Below, in pieces: positions 968 to 29,485 of a stretch of 33,964 bases of DNA. The stretch is from Nanobdellota archaeon (lineage in GTDB: Archaea; Nanobdellota; Nanobdellia; SCGC-AAA011-G17; UBA489): the NCBI GenBank assembly GCA_030699455.1, contig JAUYMN010000023.1:1-33964 (forward strand). The letters run 5' to 3'. The notes under the pieces are model-generated. The model searched no databases. It had not been told where the DNA came from and saw nothing but the letters and a program-made list of their open reading frames with translations. Positions within the stretch are counted from its first letter, which is position 1. The number at the start of each line of letters is the position of its first letter. Position numbers and translations under genes: made by a program.

Positions 968-1567
968 TTAATTATTTCTTTTTAACCCCAAACGTAAAAA
1001 TATTATGGCCACCAGAGAGCCGAGCGAGTTATAAAACAAATCAAAAATTGTATTAAACCACTCAGAATCTATCCACTCTGTATTGATATCACCCACACCA
1101 TGCCCAAATACACCCAATCCGTCACCATAATATAAATATCCCATAAATTCGATAAATTCGACCAAAACTCCCACGCCAGATGCAGCTAAAAAAATAAACA
1201 GCAACATCACAAATCTCTCATTTTTATTTCTCAAAAATCCACTTTCCTCAAAATAATTGTAAATAATCACAGTAGCAACAGCTATGCCAACGAAATGTGT
1301 GACATGATCCCATTGTATCAATATAGGAGATATGTTGTAAAATCCAAATACTCCCATGTTGTGCAGAATAAATGCAAAGGTTATAGACAAATAAATCCAT
1401 GGCTTTAACCTGAAAGAATGATACATCAGCATAAGAATAGTTAACAAAACAAGCATAAAGATACTGTCATTAATATAATCACTCACACCAATGAATTTAG
1501 CAAGAACAATAAAAGATAAAAATACCACAAAGGATATCCAATATGCCCACCAAGGTCTTTTCATCAC
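968..1567 (-). CDS. Multi-pass membrane protein, DUF2238/YjdF-like
   Basis: A 199-residue protein with about six hydrophobic segments and the conserved polar pieces WDHVTHFVG (near residue 87), FIEFMGYLYYGD (near 138) and an IDSEWFNTIFDLFYNSLG segment before the last helix. Asp/His and Asp-x(4-5)-Asn-x-x-G placements of this kind are typical of the DUF2238 (YjdF) inner-membrane family, whose function is not known to me. Its ATG overlaps the stop codon of the E2 gene by four bases (ATGA), so it is translationally coupled as the last gene of the 2-oxoacid dehydrogenase operon. That position does not by itself show a role in the complex. The family assignment is from pattern memory; the membrane call is firm. 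Confidence 0.6.
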   Translation of the reverse strand: MMKRPWWAYWISFVVFLSFIVLAKFIGVSDYINDSIFMLVLLTILMLMYHSFRLKPWIYLSITFAFILHNMGVFGFYNISPILIQWDHVTHFVGIAVATVIIYNYFEESGFLRNKNERFVMLLFIFLAASGVGVLVEFIEFMGYLYYGDGLGVFGHGVGDINTEWIDSEWFNTIFDLFYNSLGSLVAIIFLRLGLKRNN

Positions 1568-2901
1568 ATTTCCACCAATAATAAGTCTGGATCTTCTAAA
1601 TAATCAATAACTTTATTCATAAATTTTGCTGCTTCAGCACCATCCAATATTCTATGGTCAAAAGACAAAGTTAAATAGATGATTTTCCTTATTGCAACCT
1701 TGCCATCAATAACAGTGGCTTCATCCTTCATCCTCCCTAATCCAACAATTGCAGCCTCTGGATAATTAATAATGGGCGTGCCAAACATCCCGCCTAAGCT
1801 GCCATAATTAGTAATTGTAAATGTTCCACCTTTCATATCACTTAAATTTATGTTTTTATTCCTTGCTTTGTCTGCAAGGTCTGCTATCTCCTTTGCAATA
1901 TCCAATATGCTTTTTTTATCAGCACTTTTAATCACAGGAACCATCAATCCATCTGAAGTGTCAACAGCAATCCCAATATTATAATATTTTCTCATAACTA
2001 TCTCTTCATTTCCAAATTCATCGGATTCCAAAACAGAATTCAATGTTGGATGTTCTTTCAGTGCAGCAACAATAGCTTTGACTATAAATGGCAGATAAGT
2101 CAGCTTAATCCCCTCTTTCTCAGCTTTTTCTTTTTCAACACTCCTAATTTCAGATAGTTTTGTCAAATCAGCCCTGTCAATATGCGAAACATGGGGAATT
2201 TCTGTTGCACTTCTTGTCATGTTCCTTGCAATTGTTTTTCTTATGCCCTTCAGTGGAGCCCTTTCAACATAGCCATAATTATCATACTTTCGAACATGTT
2301 TTACATTTTTTTCAACTTCAGAAGTTCCTGAGCCACTGCTCACTCTGACGTCGCTTTCAGTTATCTGCCCATGTTTTCCAGTAGCGTTTAGCTTTGTCAA
2401 ATCAGCACCAATTTCCTCTGCAAACTTTCTTACTTTGGGCATAGCCAAAACTTTTCCAACAATTTTGTCAGCCTTTTCAACAGAGCTTTCTTCTCTCTTA
2501 TTGACTGCAGGTCTTATCTCTTCTCTAGCTTCCTTTATATTTTTATCAACATAATCTGCATCTTCAAGGTCACCTACAACACCCACAGAGCCCTTTTTAA
2601 CAGTCTCAGCATCCCTTTTGACCACTCTGTCTTCAAGGTTTTTTTCTTCAGGAGCAGCTTCCCCTTTCTGTCCAATAACCACAAGAACATCACCAACATG
2701 GACTGTTTCGCCTTCATTAAAATTTAACTTCAGAACAATGCCATCAACTGGACTCGGAATTTGAACAACCGCCTTATCAGTTTCAATATCAGCTAAAGTA
2801 TCATCCTCTTTAATATTATCGCCAACCTTAACTTTCCATTTTACGATTTCACCTTCGGTTATTCCTTCGCCTACATCCGGAAATTTAAATTCATAGGCCA
2901 T
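1564..2901 (-). CDS. pdhC: 2-oxoacid dehydrogenase complex E2, dihydrolipoamide acyltransferase
   Basis: A 445-residue E2 core protein that carries the acyl group on a lipoyl arm and passes it to CoA. Residues 1-80 are a lipoyl domain with the ETDKAVVQIPSP motif, placing the lipoylated Lys at 43. A long charged linker follows (about 85-150), then a peripheral subunit-binding domain around 153-190 (MPKVRKFAEEIGADLTKLNA, then GKHGQITESDV). The catalytic acyltransferase domain fills the rest and ends with SFDHRILDGA, giving the catalytic His416 and Asp420. All key residues are present. One lipoyl domain only. The gene abuts E1beta (shared base at 2901) and overlaps the next membrane gene by 4 nt. 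The E1 and LipB neighbours fit. The acyl substrate (pyruvate or branched-chain oxoacid) cannot be told from the sequence. Confidence 0.95.
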   Translation of the reverse strand: MAYEFKFPDVGEGITEGEIVKWKVKVGDNIKEDDTLADIETDKAVVQIPSPVDGIVLKLNFNEGETVHVGDVLVVIGQKGEAAPEEKNLEDRVVKRDAETVKKGSVGVVGDLEDADYVDKNIKEAREEIRPAVNKREESSVEKADKIVGKVLAMPKVRKFAEEIGADLTKLNATGKHGQITESDVRVSSGSGTSEVEKNVKHVRKYDNYGYVERAPLKGIRKTIARNMTRSATEIPHVSHIDRADLTKLSEIRSVEKEKAEKEGIKLTYLPFIVKAIVAALKEHPTLNSVLESDEFGNEEIVMRKYYNIGIAVDTSDGLMVPVIKSADKKSILDIAKEIADLADKARNKNINLSDMKGGTFTITNYGSLGGMFGTPIINYPEAAIVGLGRMKDEATVIDGKVAIRKIIYLTLSFDHRILDGAEAAKFMNKVIDYLEDPDLLLVEM

Positions 2902-3878
2902 TAAAATTCCACCACTTTTTTTATTGCATTAACAATCCTGTGTTCTTCAGGCAGGTAATGGTTCTCATTTTGAAAATATGGAAATACTGTGTCAAATCCT
3001 GTAACCCTTTCAACTGGTGCTTCTAATTCCAATAGCATATGGTCATTTATCCTTGCAATTATCTCTGCACCAACACCGCCGGTCCTTGGACCTTCATGCA
3101 CAATTACGCATCTTCCAGTTTTTTTAACAGAATTAAATATTGTTTCATTATCCATTGGTTTTATTGTTCTTAAATCAATTAATTCACAGCTAACATTTTC
3201 TTTTTCAACTGCATCAATGGCTTTTTGTGCTTCCCTCAGCATCGCACCATATGCAATAATTGTAACATTATTTCCTTCTTTGACAACTTTAGCCTTGCCA
3301 ATTGGAATTGTGTAATCATCTTCAGGAACTTCATTTTTAATTGCCCTGTAAACCCTCTTAGGCTCCATAAAAATTACAGGGTCATCATCTCTTATTGCAC
3401 TAGTTAACAACCCCTTTGCATCATACGGATTTGAAGGGATAACAACTTTCAGCCCAGGAATATGCATAAACAAACTTTCCATGCTTTCGCTATGGTGCTC
3501 CAAAGCTCTTATCCCACCGCTGTAAGGCATTCTAATAACCAACGGACAATTAAATCTTCCTCTGGATCTATTTCTTATTCTTGAAGCATGTGACACAATT
3601 TGTTGAAAAGCAGGATAAACAAAACCACTGAACTGTATTTCTGCAACGGGTCTTAAACCTCTAACTGCCATTCCAATTGAAGTGCCAACAATACCATTCT
3701 CGCTTAATGGTGTATCATAAACCCTATCTTTTCCATATAATTTTTGCAATCCGGCAGTAACTCTAAACACACCGCCTTCTTTTCCAACATCTTCGCCTAA
3801 TAATATAACATTCTTGTCCCTTTTCATCTCCTGCTTCAAAGCTAAGTTAATAGCATCAACCATATTAAGTTCTGCCAA
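2901..3878 (-). CDS. pdhB: 2-oxoacid dehydrogenase E1 component, beta subunit
   Basis: A 325-residue E1beta that pairs with E1alpha to bind thiamine diphosphate and decarboxylate a 2-oxoacid. The N-terminal LLGEDVGKEGGVFRVTAGL and TPLSENGIVGTSIGMA match the transketolase pyrimidine-binding fold, with the cofactor-activating Glu at residue 60. RMPYSGGIRALEHHSES and VIPSNPYDAKGLL are E1beta hallmarks, and the C-terminal transketolase-C domain (GRCVIVHEGPRTGGVGAEI) is complete. Length is normal for the family. The first 14 nt overlap the 3' end of lipB, and the stop touches the E2 start, so it is tightly coupled within the operon. E1 genes of pyruvate and branched-chain enzymes look alike at this level; pyruvate is only the default reading. 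Confidence 0.95.
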   Translation of the reverse strand: MAELNMVDAINLALKQEMKRDKNVILLGEDVGKEGGVFRVTAGLQKLYGKDRVYDTPLSENGIVGTSIGMAVRGLRPVAEIQFSGFVYPAFQQIVSHASRIRNRSRGRFNCPLVIRMPYSGGIRALEHHSESMESLFMHIPGLKVVIPSNPYDAKGLLTSAIRDDDPVIFMEPKRVYRAIKNEVPEDDYTIPIGKAKVVKEGNNVTIIAYGAMLREAQKAIDAVEKENVSCELIDLRTIKPMDNETIFNSVKKTGRCVIVHEGPRTGGVGAEIIARINDHMLLELEAPVERVTGFDTVFPYFQNENHYLPEEHRIVNAIKKVVEF

Positions 3879-4704
3879 TTTTTGCCTCCTGAATGATTCC
3901 AGTTTTTTTCTTTAATTCCTCGACAGACATATTATTTATTTCTGTATAACCAAATTTATTTTTTATGGCAGATCTAACGGCAGAGTCAACTTCAATTGCA
4001 CCAACACTTCTCCCTAAAAAATATTCAACAGAACACACTATAACCTCATCAGGTTTATATCCGCACGGATTAACCATCCAAAAATTTTCAACACCTCTTT
4101 CCTGAGCATAAAGAACAAATCCATGATGTGCTACCTTTCCAGAAATTCTAATTCCTTTTGACCCCATTTTTAGTGACTTGCCGTCCCTTTGAACCCAGAT
4201 ATCTTTCCTTTCCCTTCTGCTTGCATAGCTATTATCAGAGCCAATATTCAGACCAGCAACCCCAAGATTTTTCAAAGAATCAAACATAACTTGATATATT
4301 TTTGTTTTATAGCTTGCAAGATCTAATACCTTGCCAGTAATCTCAGAATGCAAAACTATTGGATAATAAACAAACTGACCAGGAGCAAGCACTGTAGCTC
4401 CACCCCCGCGCAATACCTGAGAAAATCCTGCACCATATCTGTGCATTAAATATTCAACAACATCATCATGTGTAAAACCATCACCATGGCTTTTTCTAAC
4501 TTGACCAAGCAGCAGATCACTAAAAATATTATTTGCTTTGTCACTGCCAAAACTAACTTCCAATGGATGCTGCACTGCTAAGATTATATCATCAACTGCA
4601 TCCTCCTTTCTCATTTTTACTAATTCTTCTTGTAGACTATATGTCTCCTGGTAAGACATCACTCCTAAGTCAATCCAGTTTGCAACCTTTTTTTCCAAAC
4701 TCAT
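3865..4704 (-). CDS. lipB: Octanoyltransferase LipB (lipoate biosynthesis)
   Basis: A 279-residue LipB-family protein. Known members move octanoyl from octanoyl-ACP to lipoyl-domain lysines, the step before sulfur insertion by LipA. The sequence shows the WIDLGVMSYQETYSLQEEL opening, the RGGGATVLAPGQFVYYPI motif at about 99-116, the catalytic Lys in MGSKGIRISGKVAHHG (Lys183) and the catalytic Cys in VNPCGYK (Cys214). It is longer than bacterial LipB because of an insertion around residues 56-98 and a C-terminal tail. It lies between E1alpha (4-nt overlap) and E1beta (14-nt overlap), so the lipoylation enzyme is made with its likely substrate, the E2 lipoyl domain. The acyl donor in an archaeon is unclear. 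A ligase-like or amidotransferase activity in the same superfamily is the alternative. Confidence 0.88.
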   Translation of the reverse strand: MSLEKKVANWIDLGVMSYQETYSLQEELVKMRKEDAVDDIILAVQHPLEVSFGSDKANNIFSDLLLGQVRKSHGDGFTHDDVVEYLMHRYGAGFSQVLRGGGATVLAPGQFVYYPIVLHSEITGKVLDLASYKTKIYQVMFDSLKNLGVAGLNIGSDNSYASRRERKDIWVQRDGKSLKMGSKGIRISGKVAHHGFVLYAQERGVENFWMVNPCGYKPDEVIVCSVEYFLGRSVGAIEVDSAVRSAIKNKFGYTEINNMSVEELKKKTGIIQEAKIGRT

Positions 4705-5789
4705 TCACCCTCACCTTTAGAAGTTTTCATAGACTTCAAATAATTTAACTGATCTTTTAATTCATCCGGCATCTCTTTGTACATATACTTAAACATATCA
4801 TCAATTCCCAACTTTGTAGATTCAGCCTTCTTTACCGCATCATCAACTTTCTGTTCAGCCCACTTCAAAACTTTTTCTTCATATTTCTTATTCCAGTATT
4901 TCTTCTTCAATAGATACTTTCTAAATCTTTCAATAGGATCATATTCCTTCCATTTCTTAACTTCCTTATCTTCCCTGTAAATTGTAGGATCATCTGCAGA
5001 TGTATGCGGCCCCATTCTATAAGTAAAAGCCTCAATCAGCGTAGGACCATTACCTTTCCTTGCTTTTTCTAAGGCCTCCCTAGCAATAACATATAATCCT
5101 AAAACATCATTACCATCTACCTTAACACCATCAAAGCCATAAGCATAAGCCTTTTCTGCAATCGTATCGGTAGCAGTCTGATTCTTAACAGGTAAAGAAA
5201 TAGCATACTGGTTATTTTGGCAGACTAAAACACAGGGAACATTAAAGACACCAGCAAAATTCATCGCCTCATGAAAATCACCTTCAGAAGTTGCACCATC
5301 GCCAAAGAACCCAACAGTACAATCTTTTTCTTTTTTAATTTTAGAAGCCCAAGCACTTCCAACAGCATGTAAAGCTTGACTTCCAACCGGAACAGACACA
5401 GTAAAATTATTTACATTTTCAGGCATCCTATTACCTTCTTCATTTCCCATAAAAACCATATAAAATAATTCAGGAGGCATCCCTCTCAGCATCATTGCCC
5501 CATGTTCCCTAAAAGACGGGAATAACCAATCTTCTTTTTTCATAGCTAATGCAATACCAACTTGTGCTTCCTGCCCAGAAGATTGTGCAAAAGTTCCCAT
5601 TCTTCCACTTCTTTGTAATTTAATTGCTTTCTCATCAGCAACTCTTGTGAGAATCATGTACTCATAAAGTTTAAACAAATCTTCTTTTTTTAATTTAGGT
5701 TCTGCACTTTTATTAACAACCTTGCCATCTTTGTCCAAAACCCTAAATACTTTTCCGTTCCTTGGATCATTCTTTTCTATATAACTCAT
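4701..5789 (-). CDS. pdhA: 2-oxoacid dehydrogenase E1 component, alpha subunit
   Basis: A 362-residue E1alpha subunit. The thiamine diphosphate motif is complete: GDGATSEGDFHEAMNF starts at 163 and closes with QNNQYAIS at 191-198. Before it come the substrate-side GSQALHAVGSAWA and the REHGAMMLRG stretch. YRMGPHTSADDPTIYR near residue 257 corresponds to the loop that carries regulatory serines in mitochondrial enzymes and binds the cofactor in bacteria. Family length is normal, and AGAGGTAAAAATG provides a ribosome-binding site. It follows the thioredoxin-like gene by 9 nt when that gene's shifted frame is used, and overlaps lipB by 4 nt. Together with E1beta and E2 it forms the decarboxylase-acyltransferase core. 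No E3 (dihydrolipoamide dehydrogenase) is in the window. Confidence 0.95.
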   Translation of the reverse strand: MSYIEKNDPRNGKVFRVLDKDGKVVNKSAEPKLKKEDLFKLYEYMILTRVADEKAIKLQRSGRMGTFAQSSGQEAQVGIALAMKKEDWLFPSFREHGAMMLRGMPPELFYMVFMGNEEGNRMPENVNNFTVSVPVGSQALHAVGSAWASKIKKEKDCTVGFFGDGATSEGDFHEAMNFAGVFNVPCVLVCQNNQYAISLPVKNQTATDTIAEKAYAYGFDGVKVDGNDVLGLYVIAREALEKARKGNGPTLIEAFTYRMGPHTSADDPTIYREDKEVKKWKEYDPIERFRKYLLKKKYWNKKYEEKVLKWAEQKVDDAVKKAESTKLGIDDMFKYMYKEMPDELKDQLNYLKSMKTSKGEGE

Positions 5790-15885: not shown

Positions 15886-18800
15886 TCAATTATCCAAATA
15901 TCCTGACTTATCAGCCTCATACAACAATCCCTGCATTAATCCACTTCCAGGATTACCATATGAGCTGGATGCAGCCTGAGTCATATACCACATCAGTCCC
16001 TTTTCCAGCCATGCATCATCACCAGTACGTTCATATGCCCAAAGGAATGGCAAAGCAATCACATCATAATCGGGGAGATAAGGATCAGGATTATCTATTG
16101 CAAAGCAGTATGCATAATAAGATTTGGAATTTCCAGGATTGTTATAATCAAACCATACCGGATCATCCATATTGTCTATGTTTAGATATTTAGCAAGATC
16201 TTGAACCCTTGTACCAGTATCATCTTTCAATTGGCTTGCAGGTAAGGCAACTTCAGCAGCTTTAAGTGCACTAGCTAATTCTGCAACCTGCCATGGTCTG
16301 TTGTAATCCTGAACTGTTCCAGATATGCCACATGAATTTGCATAATTTTGTCCGTCAAAATATCCACAGGAAGGCACTGTAGCTTTGTCAACATGCTGGT
16401 CTACAGCACTTTGAACTTCCATCTCTTCAATATCATAATCTTCACCAGGATCGCACAACCATCCAGGTGTAAGCTGGCTCCACCACCTGCCGTCATAGGT
16501 AGTCCAGTTATATACAGTTCTTGAACTAATCATAGCCGGAAGTCTCTGTTGCATATGCTGCAAATCATTTGGATTTCCATATTCTAAATAACCATAAGCT
16601 AAAGATCTTAACAAACGGGCAAATCCTCTCAAATAACGACCATTCCAATAATCCTGTGCCTTGTTCCACTCCATTCCTTCAATAAAGCTCTCTTGTAATC
16701 TGTCTTCACCCAATAACTGTGCAACCTGATTTATAATTTGTATTTGGAAATGTCCTGGCTCTAAATTTTGGCTGTGAGACCCCCCATGTGGATTCTGTGC
16801 GTTAGTTCCATAACCTGAGTCTCCATAGTTTAAACCATCATTATGAACAACTCCTGTATCAGACCAGAACTCTGCAACATTCTGATAATTAAGCAACACT
16901 CCACCAGGGAATTGCCCTTCAGCTCCAGCTCTAAGCGCCATCAAAGGATAATTAAATGAATGTGAATTAGTAACACCTCCATATCCAGGCTGATTATTCC
17001 ATATCTGCAATATTGGTTTAAACCATGCATTATCAATCAATATATCATAATTGGCAACTTGCCCTAACTTATCAGATATTTTTGCATCAACGGCGCGCTG
17101 CTCATCAACGGTTATCGGTGTAATCAGTGGGTAGAATGTATTTGGCATCAAAATACTTCCATCATTACCTGCAAAGCCACCAGTTTTTCTATAATAATCA
17201 TAATCGCTTGCAAAACAGAATGGATAAAACTGTTTTGACTTTAATCTTTCTATCATGTCATTGTGCGCATTTATCATTGACCCAACTTCCCCTATCTTCC
17301 CAAGATGCATTGCAAACATCTTTGTCTTGTGTGCTGCATATTCAAGATGGAATTCTTTAGCAACACTTGGAGTTTCGTCCGCATAAAACTGGAATCTCAC
17401 ATCACCAAAACCAGTTGCTTTTAAGCCAACAGGCCAGTTATTACCGGGAGCATCTTTTGCTGATATTGCAAGATAAATATCTGAAGATGCTGGTGAATAA
17501 ACTGCAGTAAAATAGCGTGGATAAACACCCTCATTTTGTGTGTCCTGCAATACAGTTCCGCCCTTTAAAACCCTATATCCGCGATAATTATTAATGTATG
17601 GAACCCATCCATGCCCAGCTTCTGCATTATTAGTAACGTTGCCATAATGTGCAGACCCTGCATCATTTAATCCTAAATCTATGATGATTGGATTAGCCTC
17701 ATTATTTGCATTTGAAAATGAAGCCTGTCCACTATTGCCTTCCACACCAACAACAAACTCTGCATACTCAAATTCACGGTTAAAATTAAGTGTGTTAACA
17801 TCATTCTCATATGTAACATCAACGTCTATGTCAGCAGAACCCTTAACAAATGTTATGCTTGTGGAATAGTCCATATAATGGTCTGATCCATCGGTCAAAG
17901 GCCCATCCACAGTAATCTTACAGCTAACTGGACCATTGCGGGTTACTTCAACATTCCCGTGCTCAGAACTGTAAACTTTTCCAGATGGTCTATCTTTGAC
18001 AACAACACCAGCCCTTGCAAGTTTAGTAGAATCAATAACTTTCGTCAAAGAACCACCAGGATTTATCAAAGAAGCTTCCTCTATTCCATTTGAAAAGTCC
18101 TTATTTATTCTGGCTTTTATCTTTCCAGTATCAATTTCTATTGCACTGCCAACATCATTACATAGATAATTGCCAGTAGAAGCCCCATCACCACCCCTCA
18201 TAAGAGTAAATTCGTCTTCTCTTTGTGTTCCATCCAAATCAGCCAAAGTTTCAACTAAAACCCATCTAGCATATTCTTGCCCTTCATTTCCAGAGAAATA
18301 TTCACCAGCATACTCTGGATTATATCCAGGCCAAGAACTTGTAGTTGTTATCTGGTAAGGATAATTGCTATTGCTTTCAAGAGTCATAGAAGCATGACCT
18401 TGTCCGTTAGTTGTAATCAAACTTGGCTGTGCGATTGGCATGCCACACTTCACATATTCTCCTGGATCTGGCGAGGCAAAATCAGTAACAGGTAAACCAT
18501 AATACCTTGCAGGAACAGCACGTGCAAGAGTCATGTCAACAGGCAGTCCAATTTCAAATCCAAAGTCATCACTGTTTCCAGTAAGCACATTAAATTCAAA
18601 CGCATCAGAAACATAAGTTTTTTCATTAATCACATTATACATAAAAGCCTGAACACCCATGATGTCATTAACAGACCTGTCAGTATGAACTTCCACAGTT
18701 TCAGAATCAATGTAATCAAATGGAATAACCTGCAGTTCTTCTTCTCCAGGAACCATTAGTACCAATACAGAATATGGAATTCTCTCAACTACCCTCGGGG

Positions 18801-19899
18801 GATAAAAATTCTCCCCATTGAACAGCACAGTATAGGTTCCATCAGGATTTGGTGTCATAGCATTAAAATCAACAGGGTCAGGCGATACTGCCAGCAATTT
18901 CGGTCTATTGTTTTCCTCCAGTCCAAAAACCTGCAAAAATAATGTATTTGAACATGCAACATCTCCATTTAAATAATTACAAACTTTTACAGCAAATATT
19001 GAAGAGCTAAATGGAGTTAAATTATAAGTAAGCACATCATTCTCAGTGGAATCATCAAAATCCAGCAAAACTATGCTGTCACTCCATCTAACAGTCCAAC
19101 TGCCTGGTTCACCATATTCCAGGACATTCCCAACAATAAAGCTAAATTCACCGCTTCCGGAAACATACCTTGGATTAACATTGCTAACATACAACGATAA
19201 AGAACAGGTATCATCTTCAGAGTCTCCGATACACTCCTCAAAATTTAATGGATTGTGATTAAATCCGATTAACTTTGGATCCTGCACTGGAGAGAACCCA
19301 ATTTTTCTGAACCATCCCTTAAGCATATTTATTACAGGACCACTATCAGCAGAGTTATCCATTGTTTTTATAACGCTTCTTGGCACTTCAATATTTTTCT
19401 GCTCTCTTTTTTCTCTTTCATCATTAACTAACTCTTTTGTATTTTCTATGGCTTTCTTTCTGCCTTGAAGATTTATTGCCTGTTGTACAGCCTTATCCTG
19501 ATCTTCTTTCGTCTCCTTAAGCACCCCAATAGTCACAGAATCATCTCTCTTTCCGCTAATAATCCCACTTGTCCATTTTATTATCCTTTCACCAACAGCC
19601 CCAACAGCCCCCATACCACCAGATGGAGTTTCTTTGCCATCAATCTCATTTTCGAGTGGATCTACAATGGTGTCTATCAAATTATCTGTTTGCTCTTTAA
19701 TAGCATCAATCTCATCGCTAAGAGTTTCATCATTGATAGTATCAGCATTGGGAATCTCATCTTCCTTAACATCCCCAATCTTGCCCTGTGCACTAACCAA
19801 AAACACAGATAACACTAAAAGAAACAAAAAACTAATAGTCAGATAACTATTACCACCTCTTTTCATATGATTTATAAACAACAAACTCCTTAAAAACAT
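15886..19899 (-). CDS. Giant secreted protein, PcRGLX/YetA-like polysaccharide lyase architecture
   Basis: A 1337-codon frame; Met12 (19866) is the better start and begins a signal (ISFLFLLVLSVFLVSAQG). After an acidic coiled region (about 40-175) come two Ig/IPT-like beta domains (about 200-330 and 335-440, e.g. RPKLLAVSPDPVDF). Residues about 450-580 look like a RIFT-barrel start (RYYGLPVTDFASPDPGEYVK, then EYARWVLVETLADLDG). A beta-sandwich follows (DTGKIKARINKDFSNGIEEA, NGPVSCKITVDG, FVKGSADIDVDVTYEND). The last 450 residues are Trp/Tyr-rich and repeat-helical like an alpha/alpha toroid. This order matches the PcRGLX/YetA family of rhamnogalacturonan-lyase-like proteins. I see no proof of catalysis. 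It is likely a secreted or surface polysaccharide-active protein, by far the largest here. Confidence 0.65.
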   Translation of the reverse strand: MFLRSLLFINHMKRGGNSYLTISFLFLLVLSVFLVSAQGKIGDVKEDEIPNADTINDETLSDEIDAIKEQTDNLIDTIVDPLENEIDGKETPSGGMGAVGAVGERIIKWTSGIISGKRDDSVTIGVLKETKEDQDKAVQQAINLQGRKKAIENTKELVNDEREKREQKNIEVPRSVIKTMDNSADSGPVINMLKGWFRKIGFSPVQDPKLIGFNHNPLNFEECIGDSEDDTCSLSLYVSNVNPRYVSGSGEFSFIVGNVLEYGEPGSWTVRWSDSIVLLDFDDSTENDVLTYNLTPFSSSIFAVKVCNYLNGDVACSNTLFLQVFGLEENNRPKLLAVSPDPVDFNAMTPNPDGTYTVLFNGENFYPPRVVERIPYSVLVLMVPGEEELQVIPFDYIDSETVEVHTDRSVNDIMGVQAFMYNVINEKTYVSDAFEFNVLTGNSDDFGFEIGLPVDMTLARAVPARYYGLPVTDFASPDPGEYVKCGMPIAQPSLITTNGQGHASMTLESNSNYPYQITTTSSWPGYNPEYAGEYFSGNEGQEYARWVLVETLADLDGTQREDEFTLMRGGDGASTGNYLCNDVGSAIEIDTGKIKARINKDFSNGIEEASLINPGGSLTKVIDSTKLARAGVVVKDRPSGKVYSSEHGNVEVTRNGPVSCKITVDGPLTDGSDHYMDYSTSITFVKGSADIDVDVTYENDVNTLNFNREFEYAEFVVGVEGNSGQASFSNANNEANPIIIDLGLNDAGSAHYGNVTNNAEAGHGWVPYINNYRGYRVLKGGTVLQDTQNEGVYPRYFTAVYSPASSDIYLAISAKDAPGNNWPVGLKATGFGDVRFQFYADETPSVAKEFHLEYAAHKTKMFAMHLGKIGEVGSMINAHNDMIERLKSKQFYPFCFASDYDYYRKTGGFAGNDGSILMPNTFYPLITPITVDEQRAVDAKISDKLGQVANYDILIDNAWFKPILQIWNNQPGYGGVTNSHSFNYPLMALRAGAEGQFPGGVLLNYQNVAEFWSDTGVVHNDGLNYGDSGYGTNAQNPHGGSHSQNLEPGHFQIQIINQVAQLLGEDRLQESFIEGMEWNKAQDYWNGRYLRGFARLLRSLAYGYLEYGNPNDLQHMQQRLPAMISSRTVYNWTTYDGRWWSQLTPGWLCDPGEDYDIEEMEVQSAVDQHVDKATVPSCGYFDGQNYANSCGISGTVQDYNRPWQVAELASALKAAEVALPASQLKDDTGTRVQDLAKYLNIDNMDDPVWFDYNNPGNSKSYYAYCFAIDNPDPYLPDYDVIALPFLWAYERTGDDAWLEKGLMWYMTQAASSSYGNPGSGLMQGLLYEADKSGYLDN

Positions 19900-20084: not shown

Positions 20085-21368
20085 TTATGCTTTCTTAACC
20101 AACTCTATGCACATACCAGCTGCCACTGTTGCACCAGCATCACGGATGGCAAACTTAGACATCTGTGGTATTTCGCTGAATTTTTCAATAACAACAGGTT
20201 TTGTTGGTTTAATCTGTACAACTGCAGCATCACCAGTCTTTAGTGTGTCTGGTTTTTCTTTTATCACTGCACCTGTTGCAGGATCCAACTGCTGCTTCAG
20301 CTCACTAAACTGACAAGCAACCTGCGAAGTATGTATGTGGAATACAGGAGTATATCCCTGTGTAAGCACCGTTGGATGATTTAATATCATGATTCTTGCA
20401 GTAAACTCAGTTGCAACAACTGGTGGATTAGCTGCATCACCTAAAACATCACCGCGTGCTATATCTTTTTTACCGACTCCACGAACATTAAAGCCGACAT
20501 TATCTCCAGGAATTGCTTCCTGTATTTGTTCATGATGCATTTCAATACTCTTAACCTCTCCAGGAACGCCCTTGCCTTCCCTTCCAGGAACAAATACAAT
20601 CTTTTGTCCAACTTTCATCTTACCAGTTTCAACACGACCAACCGGAACCAAACCAATGCCAGATATATTATACACATCCTGAATTGGCAGTCTTAATGGA
20701 AGATCCACTGGCTTTTCAGGCTCATCAAAAAGGTCAATCTGTTCATTGACTGTAGGACCTGTGTACCATGGCATGTTCTCTGATTTTTTAAAAACATTAT
20801 CACCTTCAAATGCGCTTGCAGGTATGAAAGGCACTTTCTCAGGCTTGTAACCAGCTGTCTGGATTAATTTAGTTACTCCTTCCTTCACTTCCTTGAATTT
20901 TGCTTCATTATATTTCACTGCATCCATCTTATTTACTAATATACATAACTGAGTTACACCAAGTGTTTTTAGCAACCATAAGTGCTCCCTTGTCTGTGGT
21001 TGCACACCGTCTGTGGCTGCAACAACCAAGAATGCTACATCAGCTTGTGAAGAGCCTGTAATCATATTTTTAACAAAGTCTTTGTGTCCAGGAGCATCAA
21101 TTATTGTCGCTTCATATTTTTGACCCATATACCTTTTATAAGAAAGATCTATTGTGACTCCTCTTTCCTGCTCTTCTTTTAGATTATCCATGACAAAAGC
21201 GAATTCAAATCCTGCTTTTCCCAGCTCTTTAGCCTTTTCTTTTAATTTTCTCATTGCCTGTTCATCAACATTGCCTGAATCATACATGAGCCTCCCTACA
21301 GTAGTAGATTTGCCATGATCAACATGACCTACGAATATTACGTTTAAATGCGGTTTTTCCTTTGCCAT
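20085..21368 (-). CDS. tuf: Translation elongation factor 1-alpha (aEF1A)
   Basis: A 427-residue GTPase that delivers aminoacyl-tRNA to the ribosome. The start used is ATG at 21368 ([20 protein letters not shown]), which has GGAG 11 nt upstream; an in-frame GTG at 21380 is possible but less likely. The G motifs are intact: GHVDHGKST (G1), [11 protein letters not shown] (G2), DAPGHKDF (G3) and NKMDAVKY (G4). Domain II ([20 protein letters not shown]) and domain III ([18 protein letters not shown]) are complete, and the C-terminus [16 protein letters not shown] is typical of archaeal and eukaryotic EF-1alpha. In contrast to EF-2 in this window, the P-loop is uninterrupted. A TATA-like CATTTATAAATC lies about 50 nt upstream, divergent from the prepilin gene. 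Confidence 0.97.
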
Positions 21369-21416
21369 TTGTATATACACTCCAATTTATTGAGTAGGTT
21401 ATGTCTACTAAAATAT

Positions 21417-27248: not shown

Positions 27249-29485
27249 TCAATCATCCTGTCCTTCTTCTTTCAAATCTTCAGCTTTCAAACCTTTGCGT
27301 TCTCTAATGCTATTAATCACTTTATCCTGTAACTCTCTTGGCAATTTCTCATAATCCTGATCTATCAGGAAAAAGTTACCACGCCCAGAAGTCATTGAAC
27401 GTATCTCATTGCTTAATCCAAACATTTCAGCAACAGGAAGCTTAGCCTTGATTATAATCTGGTCGCCTTCCTGATCCATCTCCAACAATTGTCCACGCTT
27501 GTTTGATATCAACCCCGACATGTCACCCATGTTTGAATGTGGAGCATCAATTTGAATAATCTGCATTGGCTCAAAAATAACAGCACCTGCCTGTGCCATT
27601 GCACCTTTTATTGCAGCCCTTACAGCTGGTAATACCTGAGCCGGTCCTCTGTGAATTGCATCTTCATGCAGTTTTGTATCTGTCAAAGTAACTTTCATAT
27701 TAATTCCTGGCTCTTTTGCCATTGGTCCCTGTTTCATGACCTGTTCAAAACCTTCATTCACTAATTCCTGAACTTCCCCTATATGAACAATACCCCTTGT
27801 GCCATCAACCAAAACATTTCCATTGCAGATATCCCTTATTTTTTTTCCTTCCTTAACAGAAATACCAATTGATTCTAACTTGTCATATAGAGCCTTATCA
27901 TTTTTCTTTAATCTTCCTTCAGGAATTAATCCTTCCTTAATTGCTTTTGCTAAGCTTTCTTCCAAGGGCTCAACCTTAATATAAAATTTATTATGTTTAT
28001 TCGGTGATTTTCCCTCTACTTCTGGAGACCCTTTTGAAATTGATTCTCTATAAATTACAATTGGCGGTGATGTTTTAACATTAACACCTTTTTCATCCCT
28101 TATGCGATTTTCTGTGACTTCTAAATGCAGTTCGCCCATTCCATGAATCAAATTCTCCCCTGTTTTTTCATTGATTTCAACTTTTATCGACGGGTCTTCC
28201 TTTGACATTTTTCTCAATGCTTCTATTAATTTAGGCAAGTCTGATGATTTTTCTGCTTCTATTGATTTTGTTACAACAGGTTCAAAAATGTGTTTTATTG
28301 ATTCAAAAGGTTCTATTGGATTCTTTGAAACTGTCTCGCCAGAAAATATTCCTTTCAGCCCAGAAATTCCAACTATGTTTCCTGCAATAACTTCCTCCAT
28401 CTGAAGTCTCTGCGCACCCTTGTAAATGCTTACCTGTTGAATTCTCACGTGCTTCTTGACTCCGTTGAGATATACTTCATCTCCAGGCTTAAATGCACCA
28501 GAAAACATTCTTCCTGCAGCAACTTCTCCCATATGAGGATCTATCACAATTTTAGTGCATACAAAAGTTGGTTCTCCCTCTGGATCACAGCTGAGGATTG
28601 CCTTGCCTTCTGGAGATTCTATATCTCCATGCCATATGTTTGGTATCCTATAATTTTGTGCTGTAATTGGATTTGGCAAATGCTTAACAACCGCACTAAG
28701 AACCACCTGATGCAATGGTGCTTTTTTTGCAAGTTCCTTGTATTTTAAATCATTGCTTGGATCTGAATAGTGCTCTATTATATCTCTAAATGAAATTTTC
28801 TTTTCCTGCATATAATCTATGCTCATTGCCCAATTATGGAATGCTGAACCAAATGCAACTGAGCCATCCTGCACATTTACACTCCATTTTCCCTTATGAA
28901 TTTCAGGAGCAATTTTTTCAATCAATTTGTTAACTGATGCAATTATTTTTACAAATCTTTCCTGCATTGCTTCAGGTGTCAATTTTACTTCCCTAATTAA
29001 ACGATCTACTTTATTAATAAACAATATTGGTTTTACATGCTCTTTTAATGCTTGTCTTAATACAGTTTCTGTTTGTGGCATTATACCTTCAACCGCATCA
29101 CAAAGAACTATACAACCATCAACTGCGCGCATTGCTCTTGTTACATCGCCACCAAAATCAACATGACCTGGTGTGTCAATAAGATTAATCAGATGCTCTT
29201 CATTTTTAATTGTGTGAACCATGGAAACGCTTGAAGAATCTATTGTGATGCCTCTGGCCTGCTCGTCTCCGTGAAAATCCAGTGCCAGCTGCTTTCCTGC
29301 ATGCTGTTCTGAAAGCATTCCAGCTCCTGCCAGAAGATTATCGCTAAATGTTGTCTTACCATGCAACCGTCTTTGAGATTTTTGACTTCTCAAAAGATAT
29401 CGATATGGGCACAAATAGCAATATTTCTTATGTGGGTTGGCTTTCTCATCAATTCCTTAACACTTGTTGCAAGATCTTTTGCCAC
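27249..29485 (-). CDS. fusA: Elongation factor 2 (EF-2), split by a 35-nt archaeal intron in the P-loop
   Basis: EF-2 moves tRNAs and mRNA on the ribosome. Exon 1 is 29485-29399: start GTG with GGAGG at 29500-29496, 29 codons ending NIAICAHID. Exon 2 is 29363-27249: HGKTTFSDNLLAGAGM to the stop, 704 codons. Joining them gives 733 residues, the normal archaeal length, with G1 AHIDHGKT, RGITIDSSSVSM, DTPGHVDFGG and NKVDRL. The diphthamide loop LHEDAIHRGPAQ puts the modified His at 600. Without splicing the frame reads AHIDIF-stop. An internal in-frame Met would give a protein with a scrambled N-terminus and no P-loop, which cannot be functional. The exon borders coincide with a bulge-helix-bulge (separate entry). 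A LAGLIDADG gene ends 4 nt upstream. Confidence 0.93.
29359..29408 (-). other. Bulge-helix-bulge splice motif and 35-nt intron (29364-29398)
   Basis: RNA of the minus strand. The outer helix pairs CCAU (29408-29405) with AUGG (29362-29359). The central 4-bp helix pairs AUCG (29404-29401) with CGGU (29369-29366), including one G-U. The 5' bulge is AUA (29400-29398) and the 3' bulge UGC (29365-29363). An inner stem follows: UCUUU (29397-29393) pairs with AAAGA (29374-29370), then after one unpaired U GAGA (29391-29388) pairs with UCUC (29378-29375), around a 9-nt loop (29387-29379). Cleavage between the second and third base of each bulge, as archaeal splicing endonuclease does, releases exactly 29398-29364 and joins GAU to CAU. 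The protein junction AHID-HGKTT agrees to the base. Confidence 0.93.

Follow-up and report, generated by a model that had tools for sequence, protein, structure and literature searches.

A probable 35-nt bulge–helix–bulge intron in the EF-2 gene of a Nanobdellota archaeon and related inserts at translational-GTPase P-loops

How does an archaeal cell obtain elongation factor 2 from a gene whose reading frame is broken within the codons of the GTP-binding loop? The question is raised by the window analysed here, a stretch of 33,964 nucleotides (nt) from contig JAUYMN010000023.1 (C21) of a 770-kb draft archaeal genome (G000; GenBank assembly GCA_030699455.1, an uncultured Nanobdellota archaeon), which comprises 28 contigs and is 82.7% complete. 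On the minus strand of the window, the EF-2 gene (29485–27249) is interrupted by 35 nt (29398–29364) between AHID and HGKTT of the P-loop. We read these 35 nt as a bulge–helix–bulge (BHB) intron in the EF-2 pre-mRNA, with a probability of roughly 0.93. This reading is supported by the BHB geometry at the frame-restoring cuts, covariation among relatives, empty sites, purifying selection on the host genes, the presence of the endonuclease EndA and the ligase RtcB, and four putative tRNA introns that share this geometry. A preliminary description of the locus had already proposed a BHB intron in the EF-2 P-loop, and the same lines of evidence uphold that proposal.

The interrupted EF-2 frame and its predicted fold

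Deletion of exactly 29398–29364 yields a 733-residue archaeal EF-2 without a stop codon. The joined product matches NCBIfam TIGR00490 (aEF-2) over its full length with 1020.7 bits (cut-off 738) and is 84–85% identical to EF-2 of four insert-free genomes of the same genus. Both the broken frame with its in-frame TGA and the restored length of 733 residues are therefore as first described. The P-loop motif is uninterrupted in aIF5B, which is encoded elsewhere in the same genome, and in the internal control listed in Table 1.

The window has a single frame-restoring junction, and it is identical to the junction given by the BHB, in which four of four central pairs are present and two 3-nt bulges span both exon–intron borders. 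When the insert was shuffled and the cuts were kept where the reading frame puts them, four of four central and five of five inner pairs arose with a probability of 1.3e-4; this value is for the window alone, and the comparison with relatives makes a far stronger case. In the proposed mechanism, the exon ends flanking the P-loop codons would pair with the intron, placing a 4-bp helix between the two bulges as a substrate for EndA. Cleavage by this enzyme would fall between the second and third bases of both bulges; ligation of GAU to CAU by RtcB would then restore the AHIDHGKTT P-loop of an ordinary EF-2. If the intron were retained, translation would stop 6 nt into it and leave an inactive 31-residue stub.

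Table 1. Features of the split EF-2 gene, its predicted BHB and the EF-1A control (positions in the window)
Feature	Position	Strand	Remarks
Ribosome-binding-like motif GGAGG	29500-29496		Near EF-2 exon 1
EF-2 exon 1	29399-29485	-	GTG start; VAKDLATSVKELMRKPTHIRNIAICAHID; ends ...NIAICAHID
BHB outer helix, 5' strand CCCAU (exon 1)	29405-29409	-	
BHB central helix, 5' strand AUCG (exon 1)	29401-29404	-	
5' bulge AUA	29398-29400	-	Predicted cut after second base, AU^A (29399^29398)
Predicted 35-nt BHB intron AUCUUUUGAGAAGUCAAAAAUCUCAAAGACGGUUG	29364-29398	-	Absent from G001-G004
Inner stem, 5' strand UCUUU	29393-29397	-	
In-frame UGA (TGA)	29390-29392	-	Read on intron retention; 6 nt past 5' cut
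Inner stem, 3' strand AAAGA	29370-29374	-	
BHB central helix, 3' strand CGGU (intron)	29366-29369	-	
3' bulge UGC	29363-29365	-	Predicted cut after second base, UG^C (29364^29363)
BHB outer helix, 3' strand AUGGU (exon 2)	29358-29362	-	Four of five bases pair (CCAU/AUGG)
EF-2 exon 2	27249-29363	-	HGKTTF... through stop codon
EF-1A gene, internal control	20085-21380	-	Same P-loop (GHVDHGKST), uninterrupted

Two other kinds of insert were considered and rejected for the 35 nt. A group I or group II intron requires a catalytic core, and these inserts measure 22–39 nt; an intein is an in-frame protein insert, whereas here there are 35 nt with an in-frame stop.

Recurrence, covariation and a second split gene

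A scan of EF-2 genes gathered across the order (103 genomes) listed frame breaks as well as in-frame insertions from five or six residues up, and a stop codon was not required for detection. Inserts of 22–39 nt in the same P-loop codons occur in 24 EF-2 genes: 20 in the order, three elsewhere in the class, which came from an RNA-model search, and one on an Aenigmatarchaeota contig from Lac Pavin sediment (JAPLVB010000010.1). The intron of the window would belong to a recurrent set of BHB introns at the P-loops of EF-2 and, as described below, aIF2-gamma. Fifteen of the 24 lie at the window's D|HGK site, six in the lysine codon of HGK and three in or just before the isoleucine codon, and all intron-type frame breaks found in EF-2 lie at the P-loop. 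The shortest, of 22 nt, is in L245 (G324). The first 20 inserts were scored by script; those of L158 and L245–L247 were added later and read from the sequence instead. Among the matches to RNA model R1 that were inspected (L249–L257), none had a convincing frame-restoring P-loop intron.

In the window and in nearly all of the first 20 inserts, the cuts that restore the frame are the BHB cuts. Pairing across these 20 fills 71 of 80 cells of the central helix (mean 34 and maximum 51 in 5000 shuffles of the introns) and 92 of 100 of the inner stem (mean 42, maximum 62, again in 5000 shuffles). The helices are kept through compensatory change across genomes. In 11 genes with an insert at site A, exon AUCG stands opposite intron CG.. 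and exon AUUG opposite intron CA.. without exception; the synonymous choice between AUC and AUU before GAU is matched by G or A in the intron in all 11. The covariation score for these genes is 0.531, compared with 0.172 for shuffles and at most 0.131 for slid controls.

Split genes other than EF-2 were sought by protein searches and RNA-model searches. The RNA model matched aIF2-gamma of a relative, G084, at the homologous D|HGK site, which led to the aIF2-gamma gene of the window's own genome (contig C23, locus L003, minus strand, around 2084–2052). There, 31 nt split GLVGH from VDHGKTT, with cuts at TTGGAC^A...CCAAAG^ACGTGG and a central helix of TTGG/CCAA. Nine aIF2-gamma genes of the order are split in this way, in this genome and eight relatives, at nearly the same P-loop site as EF-2. 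All nine have four of four central pairs, and the inner stems beside the bulges are less regular (two to five of five pairs). Restored aIF2-gamma scores above the cut-offs of TIGR03680 and PRK04000, and no second copy was found. Both genes are split in four genomes (the window's, G040, G084 and G085). The proposal that introns were copied between EF-2 and aIF2-gamma was rejected, as the introns of the two genes have no clear sequence identity. G084 is suggestive of copying: both of its introns have CGAC as the 3' central strand, a sequence fully complementary to the exon strand of aIF2-gamma (GTCG) but not to that of EF-2 (ATCG), where an A.C mismatch results.

The breadth of this set bears on the quality of the assembly. 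The genome is a draft in 28 contigs, and the preliminary description had named an assembly artefact as a possible refutation. That an assembly or sequencing error or a chimeric contig produced the insert is nevertheless extremely improbable, given 24 EF-2 and nine aIF2-gamma genes from 29 separate genomes, all in one length class and with covarying helices at the frame-restoring cuts; recurrence in 24 separate EF-2 genes speaks against that objection. The alignment with related EF-2 genes that it had also suggested places the insert in other relatives of the window genome and not in the four same-genus genomes.

A stop codon in the frame of the upstream exon is present in all 33 introns (24 of EF-2 and nine of aIF2-gamma), beginning 0–18 nt past the cut. 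Together the introns hold 57 stops in the exon frame, compared with 14 and 25 in the other two frames; shuffles give a mean of 27 and a maximum of 48 in the exon frame. The aIF2-gamma introns have a conserved start in common and are therefore not independent. The simplest reading would be selection for an early end of translation on the unspliced message. Short inserts with a hairpin and an early in-frame stop also resemble known elements of programmed bypassing, such as that of T4 gene 60, in which the ribosome hops over the insert. Bypassing is very unlikely here: the take-off codon and the codon preceding the landing site are identical in one of 17 between-codon inserts (in the window they differ, GAT/TTG), the sites move by several nucleotides from gene to gene, and what is conserved is the BHB rather than a take-off signal.

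Several points weigh against a BHB intron in EF-2. All of the evidence is DNA sequence, and as the genome is an incomplete draft, another EF-2 could be missing from it. In the short segment considered, the BHB fold has an energy of -9.3 kcal/mol, compared with -10.4 for the minimum fold, which lies in another register. The outermost central pair is mismatched in five of the 11 site-A relatives, outer helices are weak at sites other than the window's, and one insert (L025) has two of four central pairs, with cuts that are ambiguous within a run of A. Fold stability is not unusual relative to shuffles (z -0.72), and fold energy by itself is weak evidence for a BHB. The preliminary description had held that the RNA fold independently gives the cut points; the BHB is in the sequence as it described, but thermodynamic folding alone picks the other register. 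It had missed this weakness, as well as the recurrent set and the split aIF2-gamma in the same genome.

Gain, loss, selection and the splicing machinery

Mapped on an EF-2 tree, the presence of introns requires no fewer than 14 changes, and that of site A no fewer than 11; these counts are approximate, as the tree is a quick one and the split gene of G040 entered it with its second half labelled intron-less. G084 and G049 belong to one genus: both genes carry introns in the former and neither does in the latter, and the boundaries are clean. The comparison of the window with its four same-genus relatives likewise gives clean empty sites. In family f9, all six EF-2 genes in the tree carry introns, at three different sites. 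From the tree changes, the empty sites within genera and the sites in f9, gain and loss of P-loop introns are frequent within the order.

Between intron-bearing and intron-less genes, nonsynonymous (dN) and synonymous (dS) divergences are 0.037 and 1.26 in one EF-2 pair, 0.104 and 2.22 in another, and 0.076 and 0.997 in an aIF2-gamma pair, with dS near or at saturation. Purifying selection continues on the host genes (dN/dS far below 1). These values bear on the view that the split EF-2 is a decaying pseudogene whose function is supplied by another copy or by a host, a view encouraged by a gene that is unreadable as it stands in a genome that is not complete. We consider decay highly improbable: besides the low dN/dS, there is no further stop or frameshift, and no second EF-2 or aIF2-gamma was found. 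A second intact EF-2, which the preliminary description had regarded as a refutation, was sought in the 770-kb draft, and none was found in this 82.7%-complete genome.

The window genome encodes both EndA and RtcB. EndA is present in one copy (PF01974; TIGR00324, 108 bits; L182) of about 175 residues, with Tyr, His and Lys of catalytic type as judged by eye. Across the order it occurs in 96 of the 103 genomes, in single copy in 95 of these 96, and is almost always short. There is one RtcB (C28, L183/L184), presumably the exon ligase; its 999-residue open frame contains a large intein-like insert after GFDIN. At least four tRNA genes have putative BHB-type introns, the best-scoring introns being 27, 39, 28 and 22 nt long with four of four central pairs; in three of the four, a bulge reads TA^N, like that at position 37/38.

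We infer cutting and joining, with EndA and RtcB as agents, from sequence. Removal of the insert by another RNA route, either self-splicing or an undescribed splicing system, would leave this enzyme assignment in error, but it is a very improbable alternative, as 22–39 nt cannot accommodate a group I or II core, the inserts have EndA geometry, and the genome encodes EndA and RtcB and has putative tRNA introns with that geometry. The canonical BHB is the substrate of EndA in general; enzymes of the (alpha-beta)2 and epsilon2 types are efficient on relaxed motifs as well (PMC6379350). A single-copy short EndA, with the subunit make-up that we presume for it, argues against a need of mRNA introns for relaxed hetero-oligomeric enzymes.

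Relation to known introns and inteins

The reported BHB intron of archaeal mRNA is that of cbf5, others being merely predicted (PMC2738675), and in 2020 cbf5 was still described as the only archaeal protein-gene BHB intron family (PMC7714728); the preliminary description had also named it. No report of an intron in EF-2 or aIF2-gamma was found in the open-access literature; subscription papers and preprints were outside this scope, so an earlier report is possible. The cbf5 pre-mRNA intron of Desulfurococcales and Sulfolobales (Watanabe 2002; Yokobori 2009; PMC2738675) likewise has a BHB-like motif across the exon–intron borders of a protein mRNA, a cut between bulge residues 2 and 3 that is attributed to EndA, and gain and loss by lineage (PMC2738675). 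Nevertheless, there are clear differences. The first is the host: here the introns are in EF-2 and aIF2-gamma of another archaeal lineage, in two genes and at several adjacent sites rather than one. The second is the enzyme, since the cbf5 intron is linked to a relaxed hetero-oligomeric EndA, whereas a single-copy short EndA of presumed subunit make-up is encoded here.

Archaeal tRNA introns at position 37/38 share the geometry and length range, as in the four tRNA genes of this genome with putative introns of 22–39 nt, but here the host is an mRNA and the exon sides are bound by codons rather than by an anticodon stem. The BHB site of Haloferax HVO_1309 (PMC7714728) is also in an mRNA processed by EndA; that processing occurs in the 5' untranslated leader and does not remove a frame-restoring intron. 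In related genomes, inteins are inserted into the P-loops of EF-2 and aIF2-gamma at almost the same codons (HGK|T), but they are in frame, hundreds of residues long and removed from the protein. The idea that an intron shields the site against intein homing has to account for three EF-2 genes (L035, L037 and L038) that have both, the BHB intron following AHID and the intein following HGK.

Other genes with an intein or a large in-frame insert at HGK|T are L046–L052 and L054 (EF-2) and L301 and L302 (aIF2-gamma). The intein-bearing L048–L052 read AHIHHGK in place of AHIDHGK; together with L174 and L175 they form a divergent EF-2 lineage, in which no BHB introns were seen. In one EF-2 gene (L166, G097), which has a large in-frame insert at HGK, the frame is broken a second time, for no evident reason, somewhere from residue 183 to residue 210.

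To make their own translation factors, these cells probably have to process the mRNAs with tRNA-splicing enzymes, which would tie translation capacity to those enzymes. Most intriguing is that the introns recur in P-loops, next to intein sites. We tentatively suggest, as a possibility somewhat short of even odds, that in small-genome archaea tiny BHB introns land recurrently in the P-loop coding sequence of translational GTPases, with repeated gain and loss in two genes and at several adjacent sites beside the intein site. Selection would keep the early stops, so that core translation factors would depend on tRNA-type splicing and failed splicing would abort translation at once. If true, this would imply an undescribed mechanism of intron gain, such as reverse splicing, copying from paralogue to paralogue, or the remains of a homing element. 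With 33 cases in two essential translation genes and intron-free close relatives, gain and loss of archaeal mRNA introns could be studied directly. Gene-prediction programs will overlook EF-2 and aIF2-gamma in these genomes or call them too short.

Elsewhere in the window, an apparent pyruvate-dehydrogenase-type cluster (E2, E1-beta, lipoyl ligase and E1-alpha) lies at 1564–5789 in this small archaeal genome, and an open reading frame of 1337 residues at 15886–19899 has no Pfam match.
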